A DNA stretch of 64,000 nucleotides from Letharia columbiana. Lineage: Eukaryota > Ascomycota > Lecanoromycetes > Lecanorales > Parmeliaceae. The stretch spans positions 310,001 to 374,000 of the forward strand of contig NW_023501080.1 in NCBI RefSeq assembly GCF_014066305.1, written 5' to 3'. Below are positions 29,712 through 56,125 of the stretch, piece by piece. How positions within the stretch are numbered: position 1 is the stretch's first letter; the number at the start of each line of letters is the position of its first letter. Position numbers and translations under genes: made by a program. Under the pieces are notes generated by a model. That model ran no database searches. It was given only the letters and a program-made list of their open reading frames with translations, and was not told where the DNA came from.

Positions 29712-30107
29712 GGCGTCTGATTGGGTCGTCAATGCTGAATTTTCCCGATACCCTGGTACTTTGCTATAGTTGCACGGCTTTGGTCCATTTGTACAGCACA
29801 CAATCATGTAAATATTTGATGAAACCTGAACGCATTGGCTGTGCTCACAGTCCCATGTTGATCGCGTCCTCTCCTTTGCAACAACAGCGCTCCGCATATG
29901 GCCAATACACACGCGACCCGTTACCATTCAACCTCCCTCCCTCCCTCACTCACCCACCCACTTCCATCCCTTGCACCGCCCCATTCACCTCGCCTCCCCA
30001 ACTCCCCCCACCCCACATCGAAAGCAGTAGAAGAACTGTACGGTTTGTTGAACACGGGCTTTCTATCTCGCACTTTGGGTTCGGATCCATGAACCGTGTC
30101 TTACCAC
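29712..30107. other. 3' flank of the peroxiredoxin-like gene
   Basis: Contains the 3' untranslated region and a C-rich CCCTCC/CACCCAC stretch at 29930-30015. No gene seen. Confidence 0.5.
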
Positions 30108-30402
30108 AGAAAAGAAGAAAAAAAAGAAGAAGAAGAAAAGAAGAGGAAGAGAAGAAAAGAAGAAGAGAAGAAGAGAAGAAGAGAAGAGAAGAAGAGAAGG
30201 AGAAGAAGAGAAAGAAGAGAAGAAGAGAAGAAGAGAAGAAGAAAAGAAGAGAAGAAGAAGAAGAAGAAGAAGAGAAGAAAAGAAGAAAAGAAGAAAAGAA
30301 GAAGAGAAGAAGAAGAAGAAGAAGAAAGAAGAAAGCGAAGAAAGAGAAGAAAGAAGAAGAAAAGAAGAAAAAAAAGAAGAAGAAAAAAAAAAAAGGGGGG
30401 GA
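30108..30402 (+). repeat. Polypurine (GAA/GAAA/GAGAA)n tract
   Basis: About 290 bp consist of A and G only on the plus strand, mainly GAAGAA and GAGAAGAAG units, ending in an A run and a G run. All three frames are open as Lys/Arg/Glu strings, a by-product of composition, so the long frames here are not genes. Such mirror-symmetric purine tracts can form triplex (H-DNA). Confidence 0.95.
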
Positions 30403-30616
30403 TCCGGTGGATGGAAGTAATAAAAACCTCGAGGAGGCAAGTCCACACCCAGCGGGCTGCATTTCGAAGGCTGCTCATCGTCATCGTCATCGTGGCCGTC
30501 ACTCCATTCCATACCCCCTCTCTATCTTTTGTGTCGATCAAGGAAAGAGTCGGTCTATATGTTTTGGGATCGGATACCGTGGTCCCGGCTCGAATTGTGG
30601 CGCTTTTTTGTTTATG

Positions 30617-31090
30617 GGAGAAGGGATGGGGGATGGGGGGGGATGGGGATGGGGGGGGGGGGGGGGGGGATGGGTAGGGGGATGGGGGGTTGGTGGGGGA
30701 TGGGTTGTCGGGGAGGGGTAGGGGGGATGGTGGGGGATGTTGGGGGAATGGGTAGGGGGATGGGGAGGGGGATGGGGATGGGGATGGGGAGGGGGGATGG
30801 GGGATGGGTAGGGGGGATGGGTGGAGGAAGGGGGGATGGGGAGGGGGGATGGGTAGGGGGATGGGTAGGGGGGGGAGGGGGATGGGGGGGGGGGAGATGG
30901 GGGGATGGGTTGGGGGATGGGGGATGTGGATGGATGAGGGGATGGGGGGATGGATGGAGGGATGGGGGTGGGGGGATGGGGGGATGGGGAGGGTGGATGG
31001 GGATGGGGGATGGGTTGGGGGATGGGGAGGGGGATGGGGATGGGGATGGGGGGATGGGTAGGGGGATGGGGAGGGGGATGGGGTGGAGTT
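30617..31090 (+). repeat. (GGGGAT)n-type G-rich minisatellite
   Basis: Roughly 470 bp of irregular GGGGAT, GGGGGAT and GGGTAGGGG units with an almost pure G/A/T plus strand. It contains dozens of runs of four or more G within short distance, so G-quadruplex formation is very likely. The long Gly/Met/Trp frames across it are artefacts of composition. It lies in the 3' intergenic space between two convergent genes. Confidence 0.95.
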
Positions 31091-31135
31091 TTTACACGTT
31101 TGGGTGGATGGGGGGAGGGGGAAATAGAGTGGGTT

Positions 31136-31241
31136 GGAGAAGAAGAAGGAGGAGAAGAAGAAGAAGAAGAAGAAGAGGAGAAGAAGAGAGAAGAAGGAGA
31201 AGGAGAAGAAGAAGAAGAAGGAGGAGGAGGAGGAGGAGGAG
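31136..31241 (+). repeat. Second polypurine (GAA/GGA)n tract
   Basis: About 105 bp of A and G only, moving from GAAGAA to GGAGGA units. Together with the two tracts to the left it gives one purine-skewed zone on the plus strand. Confidence 0.95.
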
Positions 31242-32334
31242 CGAAACCGCATACGTCGATGGGCTCGGTCTGGCTTCTGGTCCGTACGATACATGAAGGC
31301 GTGGTGGGCCGCCGTGAGGAGGATGAGGGTTGGGGTTGGGGTGCTTTGAGGGGGGGGAAGGGGGTGAAGGGGGCGAGTGAGTGGCTACTGTTGTTACTGT
31401 TGTTGGTGGGGGAGGAGGGGAGGGGAGGAGGAGGGGGCAAGGGGGAGAGAGGATGTTCAGTGCTGGGGGGACGATTGTAGGCGTCGTGGTGGTGGTGGGG
31501 AGGGGGGTGGGATTGTTGTTGTTGTTGATGATGACGATGATGATGGCGGTTTTGAGTAGAGGAGGAGGAGGAGGAGAAGAGGAAGGAAGCAGTGTGAGAG
31601 CGCCGTGCTGGCTTTCTATCCCTTTCCATCCCCGGCGGAATGGCTGTTTCGACATGTGTACTAATACATGGAAGTACAAGATGGGTTCGTCGTTTAGGAT
31701 ATAATCTTACATACGTAGGTGAAGCACTCAGCGGGTCCATCGTCGTCACGTTGCTCCGTCGCATCTAAATCGAGGGTCATCCCTCGTCGCTTCTGTACTA
31801 GTACTTCACCTACATACTTCTACCCGAATCGACTTGGGCGAAGAAGGTCTTGGTCTGATTCTTCCGGGTTGGTTAAGATGCTCCTCATTCATCTAGATAA
31901 GGTAGATAGACTGTGTGTGTGTGTTGCTCTCAGCGACGGGGGGCCCCTTTCCGAGCTAATTTCTGTGCGGTCAATGTAGTTATGGGTCGGGGTGGCGAGA
32001 TGGGGAGTTGTCGTGTGAGGATTGCTTTTACCGGGTTGATGGTCAATGGACTTGCTGGTTTGTGTGTTTGGTCGAGGGCGGGATTGTGCTAGGACTAGAA
32101 GTATGTTGGGGTTGATGGGGGTTTTGAGATCCTCCCCCTTCACAATCTCTTGCTCTTTCGATGGCACTGGGGTAGCTGAACCTAGGGAGGCAATGTGCTT
32201 TGCAACCCAACGCGGCACCTTGTCTATAGGATGCATTTCAGCCGTGTGTGAGTTGTTCTATTTGACGCACATTATGCAGGCTTGTATATTTGGAGATCCA
32301 TGATTAAGACTGTGGAAAACGACACGGACGGCTG
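31242..32334. other. Intergenic with GTT/GAT and GT simple repeats
   Basis: Further G-rich sequence continues to about 31510, followed by GTTGTTGTT and GATGATGATG runs near 31514-31545 and a GTGTGTGTGT run near 31911-31922. No gene is supported. The right end is the 3' region of the monooxygenase gene. Confidence 0.5.
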
Positions 32335-33810: not shown

Positions 33811-34640
33811 GGTTACCTCTTCTTCTGATCCAGTGGACCTATCCTTTGGTGTGCGCTGTATATATATACTCAATGCTTGTGATGACTGTTCATTGTTGCT
33901 GATGTGCTTCTGTGGGAGGTTTGTAGGTTATCAACACTTACTTGTATGTTGTTGTTTAACTCTCTAGATCGCGCTCATTGCGACCTTTCTTATTGAAGTT
34001 CTATTGAACTTTGAATCTTAGAAGCTGACGACCAAAACATGGAGCGAGCATTAATTTGCATATACCAAGCGAATACTGATGATATATAGGAAACGCAGAG
34101 CTATCGGTTGCCACCTTGGGCTTGTCAAGGCCTGGCGCCAAACATTACCTCGGTCTGGGCGTCCGAAGACAACAAATCCACTTAGCCAGCGCACAGCCTA
34201 GTTCAGGTAGCTTATCAGTGCACGTACCCACTACCCCTTGAGTCCTTGACAAAGGGCCCTGAGCTGTTATGTATGGGGAACGATGCCCCAGGTACAGTAT
34301 ATGAGTACCTCTTACTGTCCATCATTCCAGTAGCCTCCATCCTTCTGGTTAGGGTAACAGCTCTACGGTCACTAATGGATCCCGTTACAGTCATCGCGTT
34401 GCGCACGCTCTTTTCTTCGACGTCTTTGACAAATCGAAATATATGCTGGGGCACGGGCTTTCTAGTAGTGGAAAGCTTGTTAACATCGTGTGAAGACTAA
34501 GGTACTCACCCCTTTCTATATAATTTATCACTAAATCAATCTTGACGAGTACTGGTTTTTGACTATTTGATTCTCAGGGAGATTCTCTAAAACCTCTCTG
34601 TGAGGGCGTAGTCCACTGGCGGTCAGCTAGCGGATATCAG
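33811..34640. other. Promoter of the monooxygenase gene and edge of the RIP block
   Basis: Base composition is still normal to about 34.5 kb. At 34570-34620 a stretch with partly self-complementary CTCTGTGAGGGCGTAG and CACTGGCGG sequence precedes the first repeat. No gene is supported; open frames at 34215-34500 lack motifs. Confidence 0.4.
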
Positions 34641-50560: not shown

Positions 50561-51529
50561 GATTATATTTAATTAATCTCTAGTATATTAAGAGATCTTT
50601 TATTTTCTTAAAGTCGCTATTATTAAAGTTTTAGTTCTATATTATTTCGATAGAATAAAGAAAGCTATTCTAAAGACTAACTCTTTTAACTATATTAATA
50701 AAGATATTCTTTTCTAATACGATAATAAGAAAATACTTTACTCGATAGTCTTCTATAATAAAAATCTTACTTTAGTAGAGTATAACTATTAAATTTATAA
50801 TAAAAAGTTATTAACTATTATTCGCTATCTAAAATACTAATATTCTAAATTAAAATATATCGATATTTTTATTAAGATCTTTATAGATTATAAGAACTTA
50901 ATATACTTTATCGAAGAAAGAGATCTTAATTATCGCTAAGCTCGCTATTTAAATATACTATTCGAATTTAATATAAAGATTATTTATCGATCTAGATCTT
51001 AAAATATTAAGATAGATATACTTATACGAATAGCTAAGTGTAAATTAATTAATTTTAGAGATTAATAATTACGTTAATAGTATTAAATAATTCTTACTCT
51101 TAATTAATTAGAATTAAATAATAAATATATCGATATATATATAATTAATAATCTTATCTACTATAAGAAAGTAGAGACTAATAAAGAAAACGACTATTAT
51201 ATAAAAATTCGTAATACTATCGCTAAGAATAAGAATAAGTTTCGAGAGATTACTTTTAGTAAATATTTCGTATAAAATAAAGTACTTTATTATAAGAATT
51301 ATTTATAGATATTTAATAATATATATATCGATATTATTTAAGAGATATATAATTAATTATTCTACGACTATTTCGAGATAGTATATATCTATAAATTACT
51401 TAAAAGGAAGTATTATTAACGAGAAATAAAGGCGATAATAACTATCTATATTTAAAATTACTATATCTATTAAAGAACTAAAATACTTCGAGATCGAGAA
51501 TATAGTTTACTCTAGTCTCTATCGATTTT

Positions 51530-51960
51530 ATAAAAACGATAATAAGATATATTAATTAACTTTATTATAGACTTACTTATATCTAATAATTATAATATTA
51601 TTTAAATAGCGATTAATTAATTTATTAAGAAATATTACTATATAATCTATTTCGATATCGATAAAGATACTATTACTAAGAAGATAATTAACTTATTACT
51701 TAAAGAAGTATTTCATCTATATAATCTATTAATCTTAATAATATCGAATTAAGACTCTTAATTCATAGCTATTATATAAAAATTCTTTTATAAATAATTA
51801 AATATTATAGTTAAGCTATTAATAGCTTTTTACTCTAAAATCGATAGATAGACTAAACGAGCGAATTAAGATATAAAGCGTTATCTTCGAATATATTATA
51901 ACTATATATAGAACGACTAGATAAGATAACTATTTATCACCGAGTTCGCCGATAATAATA
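51530..51960 (+). pseudogene. Element B integrase core remnant
   Basis: Frames show FINFIIDLLISNNYNIIQIA, INQFIKKYYYI, KEVFHLYNLLI and KIDRQTKRAN, matching the DDE integrase core with its TDGQTERAN end. Stops and substitutions are RIP-type. Confidence 0.8.
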
Positions 51961-52843
51961 CTATCTCAGCGACTACTAATATCTTATCTTTTCTTATAAA
52001 TAAAGAATTTTATTCTTAAATAAGTTTTAGCCTAAATATTATTAACTATAAAATTACTTATAAGCGTCTTAATACTACTCGAATAGAGAATATTATAAAC
52101 TATATAAAATAGATTTTTAAGTATATTAGAAGTAATATAAATCGTACTTAGAAGATTATAATTATATAAGCTAATAAGTATTAATAAAAGATTATCTTTT
52201 AGATAAATAATAAGATCTTTTTAAATAATAAGAATATTACCTTTAATTACTCTTCTTATAAATTAAATTATAAGAGACTTAATCTATTTAAGATTATAAG
52301 TCTTATAAAAATCTTATATCGTTTAAAACTTTTATTAAGTATAAGGATTTATAATATCTTTTATCTTAATCTATTAAGTCTTATTACGAATAACCTCTTA
52401 CTAGAATAATTAAACTTATCGCCGAAGTATATAACTATTAATAGTCGAATCGAATAGATTATTAAAGAAATACTTATATTTAAGTTAATTAATAGTCGTT
52501 TTAAGTATAAAGTTAAGTAAAAAAATCTTAATAATAACCTCGTTTAATATAATACGAATAGCGATAAATTCGAAAATTATTAAGATCTAGTAAACGACTT
52601 TTATAAACGATATTCTAAAGAGTCTTATCTATAAAGATTAACTTATAAAATATCGAAATTATCTTAGATACCTCGTTTTTAATCGAATTAAAATCGTCTA
52701 ATATCTTTATAATAGCCTTTTTTTTTTAGAAGCTAAGAATCGATTTCTTAAGTCTATATCGATTATAAATTATACTATATAGAACCTCCCGTATAGAATC
52801 CCCTTACTAATAAATATCTAAGCATCTTTCGAAGTTATAATAT

Positions 52844-52969
52844 TGTTAGGAACAGTCCCTACGGGGGCCCTACGGGGCCTCTGCGGGCAGGTATTTAGGT
52901 TCAAATAGGGGTGTCTGACTGTCAAGCGCAGACACCCCCGGAACCAGCTTTTTAGCTGAGTTGCTAACA
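52844..52969 (+). repeat. Element D 5' LTR
   Basis: 126 bp. It contains a perfect 10-bp inverted repeat GGGGTGTCTG (starting about 52908) and CAGACACCCC (about 52929-52938). It differs from the 3' LTR by one T/C change, an AGC/AAA-type change and one extra T. Confidence 0.93.
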
Positions 52970-52972
52970 ATA

Positions 52973-52986
52973 GTGTCTGCGCTTTG
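52973..52986 (+). promoter_or_regulatory. Presumed self-priming primer-binding site of element D
   Basis: GTGTCTGCGCTTTG begins three bases after the 5' LTR. Its reverse complement shares 12 contiguous bases (AAGCGCAGACAC) with 52924-52935 inside the LTR. No TGG-type tRNA primer site is visible at the LTR edge. Tf1/sushi-group fungal elements prime from their own folded transcript with just this arrangement. Confidence 0.65.
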
Positions 52987-53184
52987 TTTCCGGGTCGGTA
53001 GCCTAAAGAATCTGGCTAGCCACCCCGGAGCGACACTAGCCATGCCGAGGGTGACACGCTTAGTCATTATTTGAGGGTCGGGGGTTCGAGGACGCTTGGA
53101 TCCCCCATCAAAAATCAGAAACATGATTTTTTCAGAGGGTCGCTCGGGTAATAGTCACGCCGAAGGCGGGCCCCGAAGCCGAAT

Positions 53185-53276
53185 ATTTTCGGGCAGGACG
53201 CCCTATTCCAATGAGGACATTATTTTCGGGCAGAACAGCCCTATTCCATTGAGGACATTTCGGGCAGAACGCCCCA
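53185..53276 (+). repeat. Tandem repeat inside element D
   Basis: About two and a half units of 37-40 bp built on TTTTCGGGCAGAACGCCC, TATTCCATTGAGGACATT. The units differ by a few bases. The function is unknown. Confidence 0.8.
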
Positions 53277-53631
53277 GGGCAAAAGCCCAAGCAGACGCCC
53301 GGGAAAGAAACCCCGAGGCTGGCCAAAAACAGGCCTCAATTTGATTTGTGTGCGCTAAGGCGGGGTCACAGGCCCGGAATACAGCCCCATTCCCGCATTG
53401 TACCGGTGCGAAGGCGGGCCAAAGGCCTTTCACTTGGTAGCCCCGTGGGCAAATACCCCAGTGGCAAATTTCAAGCCCCGCAAATGAGCGGGCATTTAGA
53501 AGTCTTCGGGGGAGTAAACCCCGGAGCACAGGGCATGTTGTCCTTAAGATCGTGGATCTTTCGGGGAGTGACTCCTCGGAACATTGCGATTTTTGCACTG
53601 TCTGTCTTCGGAGCTCGAGGACGAGCCCCCT

Positions 53632-53645
53632 AGAGGGGGAGGCAT
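53632..53645 (+). promoter_or_regulatory. Presumed polypurine tract of element D
   Basis: AGAGGGGGAGGCAT lies directly before the 3' LTR, the place of the plus-strand primer. It overlaps a CCCCC/GGGGG inverted repeat with a four-base loop. Confidence 0.55.
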
Positions 53646-53772
53646 TGTTAGGAACAGTCCCTACGGGGGCCCTACGGGGCCTCTGCGGGCAGGTATTTAG
53701 GTCCAAATAGGGGTGTCTGACTGTCAAGCGCAGACACCCCCGGAACCAAATTTTTTAGCTGAGTTGCTAACA
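53646..53772 (+). repeat. Element D 3' LTR
   Basis: 127 bp, nearly identical to 52844-52969, with the same TGTTAG and CTAACA ends and the same internal hairpin. Confidence 0.93.
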
Positions 53773-54280
53773 AATATATTATCTATAAATCTTAATATCG
53801 CCGTTAATAGCCTCTATTAATATCGGTTATATAGTATTCTATAAAGAAACTCGTTAATATTAAATTAGAGTTTTTAGCGTCTATAGCTCGATTCGATTTA
53901 ATTTAATTTAAAAGCCCTCGATTAATCATATCGCGCTATTTCATAAACCTTTTATTCGCTTAGATATAGATTCGAAAATTATTACTATTTACCTCTACGC
54001 TTATAGATACTATTTTTATTATACTATATCGATTTTCTTCTAGCTAGACTTCTTATATACGCCTATATTTCGACTAGTAACATCGCTAGAGTATAAGTAT
54101 AAAGAGCTACTATCGTCTCTAATATCTTTTATAAAGAAAGATATAATAATATAAATTCCGAATACAATTATTTCTTTACTACTTTTACCATTTTTCAGAC
54201 GTTAAGCGTATATATATATTCATTTTTCTATCTTTCTACTTATTAATTATAGAATATAATTTTATAAAGAAAAGAGATAG

Positions 54281-54463
54281 TATTATAAGCGTATTCTATA
54301 TCCTTAATATATTACTTAGCCCTCTCACTCATTTAGGCCTAGCGTGTCTTAGTAGAAACATTTATCTACTATTTAATATCTCTCTTCTATCTATATAATT
54401 CGATATCTTAGTTATCTTATTTAAAATATCTATATTAATATTATATCTATATCGATTCTAATA
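54281..54463 (+). repeat. Element B 3' LTR
   Basis: 183 bp matching 46688-46869. It is less mutated than the 5' LTR in places, keeping CCCTC and GGCC runs. Confidence 0.88.
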
Positions 54464-55370
54464 TTAATAATCGCGTCTATAGAGCGACTATATACTTATT
54501 ATTAAAGTTATTATTATTATTAAAAAAGAATATTATAAAATTATTAGCTTACGTATTAATATAATTAATAATAATAAGATATTTATAATAAAGAGAAGTA
54601 GATTATTAGTATAATAAGATATATTATATTTACGTTAATATTAATATCGACGTTATAACGCTAGAGTAAGTACTTATAAGAGAGACGTTAGAAGTTATAA
54701 AGAATAAAAATAAATAATTTAAAGAGAGTTTTTATATTTTTTATTATAGCGTTATTACTAGTAAATAATACTTAATAATATAAATAGTAACGACGTAATT
54801 ATATTTCGCTATTATCTATAAAACCGCGTTATCTAACTATTATTATTATTTTTATTTTTATTATTAATTAATAATTAAGAATATTATAAACGCGTCGCTT
54901 TATTAATTACTCTCTTCGAATTCTTATAATAAAGATTATTATTACGTTACTTCGCTATAAACGTAATACGCTATAGAAATAACGTTATTTATAAAAAAAC
55001 TCTTCTCCCTTCTTTACTTATTAAGTTTTTAAGATTTTATTATAAATTTTTAAATCTAATATTATTCGCTATAGAGATTATTAACTAGCGCTATAAGAAC
55101 GCTAATACTAAGCGCGTCGATTTATTATAAATTATTATTAATTAATATTATAAAAGCGATATTATTCTTAAGAGTAGTATTAATATTATTATATAATATA
55201 TTAATAACGCGCTTATAGCGCGTAATAATTAGTTCTATTATATTATTAAAACGATATCGTAATAGATTAACTCTTTTCTCTTATTTCTCTATTAGAGTTT
55301 AAAGGTTTTTTAATAAACGTTCTATTTTTATTTAAGCGCTTAAGAATTAAGATCTAGAAGAGAAGATAAT

Positions 55371-55645: not shown

Positions 55646-56125
55646 GATATATATTATTAATATATAGAAAAACTTTTTCGTTTTCTATTAACTTTTTAAG
55701 ATTTTAAATTTTAAATTTTAGAGCGTAGTCTACGCTTTTCGAATTTTTAAGAATTTTAAAATTTAGTCTTATAATTATTAAAGCGTAAGGAATTCAAATA
55801 TCGCTTATTAGAGTTCGCTCGATAGCCGAACAGCTCTAATTAAAAAAAATAGATATATATTATTTAATTTTAGAATAACTTTTTTATTTTCTATTAAAAT
55901 TAAATTTTTTTTTATTTAAACTATAGAGTATAATATAGACTTTTAGATAAAAAAAGAATTATTAAATTTAGTCTTATAGATATTTAAAGATAAGAAATTC
56001 AGATATCGCTCACTAAAGATCGCTTATTAAAGATCGCTTATTAAAGATCGCTTATCAAAATTTACTCGATAGCCTCGATTAAAAAAAAATGATTATAAAT
56101 TTAATTTATAAATCTTTACTCGTAA
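55646..56125 (+). repeat. Repeat C, copy 2 (right of element A)
   Basis: Continues the C sequence broken at 40465, starting with the duplicated GATAT. It contains the same 200-bp type units as copy 1 and then a short repeated AAAGATCGCTTATTA motif near 56010-56050. Confidence 0.7.

Follow-up and report, generated by a model that had tools for sequence, protein, structure and literature searches.

A multi-copy, probably self-primed TRIM-type element in Letharia columbiana and its palindromic derivatives

The window analysed in this study is a 64,000-nucleotide stretch of the Letharia columbiana genome (NCBI RefSeq assembly GCF_014066305.1, contig NW_023501080.1, positions 310,001 to 374,000 of the forward strand). 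Its left half carries genes for a UPF1 helicase and a glutamate-cysteine ligase. The interval 30001-32000 is strongly asymmetric between its strands (GC skew 0.67 and 0.53) and contains several open frames that overlap, on both strands, and near position 34500 the GC content shifts from about 50% in gene-bearing DNA to about 12-22%. Excepted from this AT-rich landscape is the 929-bp element D at 52844-53772, with 56% GC versus 19.1% (51001-52000) and 20.8% (54001-55000) in the adjoining 1-kb intervals. Direct reading and a repeat search reproduced to the base what had been described for D, namely its length, LTRs of 126 and 127 bp, TGTTAG/CTAACA ends and an AATAT target-site duplication (TSD). 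Its main parts are as follows:

52839..52843, no strand: left copy of the TSD AATAT, the same as 53773-53777
52844..52969, plus strand: 5' LTR, 126 bp, TGTTAG...CTAACA (direct reading, repeat search)
52973..53645, plus strand: non-coding interior, 673 bp (direct reading, open reading frame list, Pfam)
53187..53274, plus strand: short direct repeats of 17 and 22 nt, spaced 34-38 nt (repeat search)
53632..53642, plus strand: polypurine tract AGAGGGGGAGG, followed by CAT, ending 3 nt short of the 3' LTR (by eye)
53646..53772, plus strand: 3' LTR, 127 bp (direct reading, repeat search)
53773..53777, no strand: right copy of the TSD AATAT (direct reading)

The two LTRs are 97% identical over 112 nt in register, and their full alignment gives 123/126 identical positions plus one gap position. 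The proposed lack of coding capacity was confirmed, as the single open reading frame of at least 120 amino acids within D (53203-53727, minus strand, TTG start) gave no match in a Pfam search.

Searching the genome (52.2 Mb in 161 contigs) with D returned at least 53 matches, fragments included. The 20 best copies were fetched and 19 of them gave both ends (L018 lacked the 5' end), with lengths between 794 and 1025 bp. Based on a script, the TSD agreed at 5/5 positions in 11 of these 19 copies, at 4/5 in four and at three or fewer in the remaining four (L006, L007, L008 and L011). The score of 1/5 for L006 arose because the script misplaced its 5' end; by eye, CTATT stands on both flanks. Four lone LTRs read by eye showed a 5/5 duplication in three cases (ATTAG, GTAGT, CGAAG) and 4/5 in one. 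Among six copies measured, the LTR pairs were 97-100% identical over the aligned bases with at most 10 gap positions, and the LTRs of L004 were identical at 127/127 positions, which indicates recent movement. Judged from coordinates only, three LTRs and two interiors lie in tandem at C2:1776128-1777850 and C142:17306-19028, and two copies are found about 0.85 kb apart at C36:117951-119009.

The search for further copies with 5-bp duplications thus revealed several independent insertions. The assignment of D to the TRIM (terminal-repeat retrotransposon in miniature) type was borne out by its multi-copy nature, short length, polypurine tract, TSDs and lack of mobilisation proteins, and these results support that it belongs to a TRIM-type family with multiple copies in this genome. 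TRIM or SMART elements are reported from plants, ants, bivalves and cestodes (PMC10886601, PMC6934838), and among fungi, TRIMs have been annotated in Cochliobolus heterostrophus (PMC4112212) and in Venturia (PMC4646964). D resembles them in that it is shorter than 1 kb, has 126/127-bp direct terminal repeats with TG...CA ends, a 5-bp TSD and a polypurine tract, lacks coding capacity and occurs in many copies. It differs in that its primer site matches its own LTR instead of a tRNA 3' end, and in the palindromic derivatives of its family described below; the two fungal papers (PMC4112212, PMC4646964) do not speak of self-priming or primer binding. D works like a TRIM and is a variant rather than a classical member if a tRNA primer site is held to be defining.

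The region around the 5' LTR boundary contains four features that bear on priming:

52892..52897, plus strand: TATTTA box, 32 nt ahead of the predicted RNA start (by eye)
52924..52935, plus strand: predicted R start and self-primer AAGCGCAGACAC (complementarity and fold; RNA start inferred)
52970..52972, plus strand: ATA spacer separating the LTR from the primer site (pattern search)
52973..52984, plus strand: primer-binding site (PBS) GTGTCTGCGCTT, complementary to 52924-52935 (repeat and pattern searches)

The PBS begins three nucleotides after the 5' LTR and forms an inverted match of 12/12 with 52924-52935, as originally noted. Among 2000 shuffled versions of the LTR, none had a contiguous stretch of 12 bases complementary to the 20 nt following the LTR, and two had one of 11. 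The pattern AACA-NNN-PBS, allowing up to two mismatches, had 45 genomic matches vs 19 for a backward control, and all 17 exact matches in the genome carried the ATA spacer. Across the 19 copies, the PBS formed 12/12 pairs with the 5' R (G-U allowed) in 11 and had one mispair in five. Three mispairs were scored in L016 and L020, where the placement of R by the script is doubtful; in L012 the script looked at the wrong place, and the actual site, located by the pattern search, pairs at 11/12 positions.

Folding of the first 67 nt of an RNA starting at 52924 gave a predicted energy of -28.8 kcal/mol (z -6.2), and none of 200 shuffles was as good. The predicted structure, a 12-bp R/PBS stem enclosing a U5 hairpin, is Tf1-like; in Tf1, a U5 hairpin lies inside the self-primer stem. 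When 15 nt of upstream sequence were added the stem was mostly retained, and with 30 nt another fold was preferred, so that the R/PBS structure would depend on a transcript start near R. Based on the spacing of the TATTTA box, the 12-nt match is predicted to be the 5' end of the RNA; in five palindromic relatives the box lies 32-33 nt from R, with 48-59 nt of sequence upstream of it. A check for a tRNA primer site of the 3'-end type was also run: TGG is absent from the 24 nt that follow the 5' LTR of D, so that D lacks a primer site for a tRNA 3' end. Taken together, the 12-nt match, the Tf1-like predicted fold, the box and this absence make self-priming of D, as the original prediction had it, a well-supported reading of the sequence.

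Were D primed by an internal tRNA fragment, as described for certain Copia lineages and the fungal Helenus (PMC10886601), its LTR match would be incidental. We consider this highly improbable for D, given that no shuffled LTR attained the match, that R and PBS are conserved, that the fold departs so far from its shuffles, and that palindromic relatives are joined at this very R/PBS match.

The self-priming LTR elements of the Tf1/sushi kind include Tf1, Tf2 and Tj1 (PMC7175516, PMC4600332, PMC6934838) and, as listed in PMC6934838, Maggy, Skippy, Boty, Grasshopper, Cft-1 and Afut1; self-priming has been demonstrated in Tf1 and implicated in others (PMC7175516, PMC6934838, PMC4600332). D would share with this group that the first 11-12 nt of the RNA, predicted in its case, are complementary to the PBS. 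In contrast to these elements it is non-coding, and its family includes palindromic insertions, which the accounts of Tf1/sushi elements consulted here do not mention. Helenus and Ajax (TRIMp3) are, like D, fungal TRIMs with 5-bp duplications; they have tRNA- or 5S-like LTR sequences and tRNA primer sites (PMC10886601). The LTR of D differs from Helenus in being devoid of tRNA-like sequence: neither ARAGORN on the window nor Rfam on 52700-53900 gave a tRNA-like or 5S-like match in D. Fungal GalEa Copia elements also combine the lack of a tRNA primer site with an inverted match adjoining the 5' LTR. In their Conserved Hairpin Site both matching sequences lie after the LTR, and the GalEa authors state that a U5-inverted repeat complementary to this site was never detected (PMC5445492). 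In D, by contrast, the match joins LTR to leader, and what follows its LTR differs from the GalEa hairpin site.

Some of the genomic LTR matches showed an unexpected arrangement, in which LTR-ATA-PBS is followed by the inverted complement of U3 in place of the D interior. A search for this junction pattern returned 12 sites, including four perfect matches, against eight for the backward control, so the count by itself proves little. Ten of the 12 sites were read in context and contain LTR matches, detected by BLAST in eight and by eye only in two (L085, L086); the other two, C10:63105 and C53:139572, were discounted as chance matches in AT-rich DNA, judged from their letters alone. Using the LTR of the related L082 as a query yielded further opposite-strand LTR pairs, of which eight were fetched. 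An inverted LTR pair is also listed among the matches at C8:593508-593662. Grouping by flank gave five independent insertions (P1-P5), all outside the window, in addition to one larger complex (P6):

C86:126708-127131: P1, 424 bp, TSD AAATT, retains 91 bp of interior
C81:53075-53319: P2, 245 bp, TSD TATAT, RIPed
C8:905382-905619: P3, 238 bp, TSD TGAAC, recurs within copies of a host repeat
C22:211663-211863: P4, 201 bp, TSD GTGGG, lacks its centre, likewise within a host repeat
C67:228306-228508: P5, 203 bp, TSD CCAGG/ACAGG, part of one arm missing
C22:370861 to about 372692 (L083, L084): P6, larger palindromic complex (by eye)

Each of P1-P5 has a U3 end at its start and at its finish, and the 5-bp TSD is perfect in four of the five; that of P2 sits in AT-rich DNA and is weak alone. 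The flanks of P3 recur on both sides in L081, L087, L090, L092 and L093 and on the left side in L088, and P4-like flanks were seen by eye in L094-L096. P4 and P5 lack a whole junction; palindromes commonly lose their centre or part of an arm. The 12-nt PBS/R junction is common to P1, P2, P3 and P6 despite their differing LTRs. The palindromes suggest that R annealed with a copy of the PBS in the course of DNA synthesis, a step that does not by itself prove minus-strand self-priming. Precise U3 ends together with 5-bp duplications favour insertion of the palindromes by an integrase.

P6 is built differently. It consists of LTR-ATA-PBS with an inverted element, 20 bp of inverted left flank and a second such junction, which forms the centre of a 1.4-kb palindrome; AT-rich (RIP-like) sequence starts part-way through, and no TSD was seen by eye. 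Both the inverted flank and the missing TSD of P6 would fit an origin of the palindromes in the chromosome, by fold-back of a broken end or by nested inverted insertions and unrelated to reverse transcription, as would an inverted LTR arrangement at C14:444325-444872 (coordinates only) whose junction is other than the primer site. For the palindromes in general such an origin is distinctly improbable, since it is at odds with the paired U3 ends and duplications of P1-P5 and with the joining of four palindromes with differing LTRs at the same 12 nt. Some inverted structures may nevertheless form in the chromosome, as exemplified by P6.

The explanation that we consider probable as a whole is that of a self-primed TRIM family mobilised in trans, whose palindromes arise when a PBS copy anneals to R. 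According to this model, D would be a short non-coding LTR retrotransposon for which the enzymes of copying and insertion are made elsewhere. Its RNA most likely begins at 52924; the first 12 nt would pair back onto 52973-52984 and, once nicked, prime minus-strand synthesis in the manner of Tf1; in the Tf1/sushi group, this primer is cleaved after nt 11. The strong-stop DNA of the plus strand would then end in a copy of the PBS, complementary to the R of any LTR of the family. As we infer from known mechanisms, this match to R exists in self-primed and not in tRNA-primed elements, and the palindromic by-product would likewise be open to the former and not to the latter. If the 3' end of the PBS copy annealed not to the minus strand but to R, on its own plus strand or on a second one, and was extended through U3, the product would be a palindrome of the form LTR-ATA-PBS-inverted U3 with a U3 end at each side, which integrase could insert with a 5-bp duplication. 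A hairpin made from one molecule has one free end, so a two-ended insertion would require two molecules or a second synthesis step; two molecules priming each other would yield two free ends. We rejected the LTRs of P1 as proof of two template molecules, because its two full LTRs are nearly identical (124/125, plus five gap positions). Whether self-primed elements generate, as a scar of self-priming, palindromic mini-elements with two U3 ends and a 5-bp TSD that are inserted by integrase is in our judgement an evenly balanced proposition.

The same TRIM family could also give rise to palindromes via a 5'-extended RNA primer, a route that does not exclude the preferred one. Here, a transcript started upstream, with U3 ahead of R, would be nicked after AGACAC and prime the minus strand; the plus strand would copy the PBS and continue into the unremoved U3 RNA, again giving LTR-ATA-PBS-inverted U3. 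Two free U3 ends would arise directly, the terminal 20 nt of inverted upstream flank in P6 resemble, by eye, a read-through transcript, and the self-primer of Tf1 is said, in one report, to stay on the cDNA. The exact ends of P1-P5, however, would require RNAs starting at the first base of U3, and the TATTTA box indicates a start at R, which leaves this route unlikely.

Element D had further been described as free of RIP. This holds for the D copy itself, which differs from the majority of eight related copies by four C>T and three G>A changes in total, but not for the family. Dense RIP-type change was found in the first ~256 bp of 7/19 aligned copies (L009, L010, L011, L013, L016, L017 and L020) and to a lesser extent in an eighth (L019), and a RIPed query brings out further relatives of D. 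In the seven RIPed copies, C>T or G>A changes occur chiefly at CpA (78/105) and CpC (72/133). A hand count of the listed positions, summed over the seven, gave 226 G>A changes up to base 256 and 55 beyond. The 3' LTR is less changed in each of them, with L017 and L020 retaining much C>T there (12/34 and 11/34, respectively). The affected zone, equivalent to 52844-53099 of the window, covers the 5' LTR together with primer site and leader, and in the seven copies, at different sites, it stops at about the same point. This boundary lies just after the B-box-like motif GGTTCGA at 53083-53089, and beyond it little G>A change is seen. As the 5' and 3' LTRs differ, the 5' change would be later than insertion. 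Spread of the zone by retrotransposition of a RIPed copy was excluded on similar grounds, as the two LTRs would then agree, and no sequence was found that could act as a RIPed partner homologous solely in LTR and leader. Recoded as purines and pyrimidines, the window yielded nothing above background beyond D itself, as assessed by reading.

In order to locate an autonomous partner, matches to RVT_1, RVT_2, rve and gag (the best 150 for RVT_1 and RVT_2) were compared by hand with LTR matches from the best 40 candidates of each LTR search. Among the matches listed, no reverse transcriptase, integrase or gag match was bracketed by related LTRs; the mobilising gypsy element that had been proposed is thus not supported as stated, and the Ty3/gypsy assignment derived from the known distribution of self-priming and not from the sequence of D. 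Open reverse-transcriptase frames are present at C5:571501, C6:826043, C10:222609 and C86:141825. The candidates near LTRs (for example C86:141825 with an LTR at C86:144683, C6:826043 with an LTR at C6:832656, and places on C44, C22, C14 and C2) were on the wrong strand, were unsuitably spaced or had no second LTR among the matches listed. C57:52349-57374, at first sight a 5-kb element, has RIPed D interior matched near both inner ends and from its match coordinates probably represents a D copy interrupted by about 4 kb of inserted DNA. L046 was discarded as a partner interior: its D part stops at about base 268, and the adjoining DNA belongs to an abundant ~180-bp repeat. In L043, D sequence breaks into a T-rich stretch. 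The ~180-bp repeat (L046:220-400) gave 774 first-look candidates, of which the best 40 were scored, and it also matches the RIPed part of the window at 55931-56124 and other stretches.

Titles and abstract openings in the literature on fungal TRIMs and self-priming revealed no self-priming TRIM, and titles and abstract openings, in which subscription journals are thinly covered, described no palindromic TRIM or LTR insertions. The D family has kept no more than its LTRs, the primer site, a leader and the polypurine tract, a set that may suffice for mobilisation in trans. The palindromic derivatives are the most informative addition to the initial picture of D. If our reading of them is true, they would provide an independent test of self-priming that needs sequence only and can be run on any genome, and they would represent both a genomic signature for self-priming and a new class of LTR-derived fold-back element. 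They may also account for some of the fold-back repeats that have been filed as DNA-transposon debris, and would point to a cost or a recombination route peculiar to self-primed elements.
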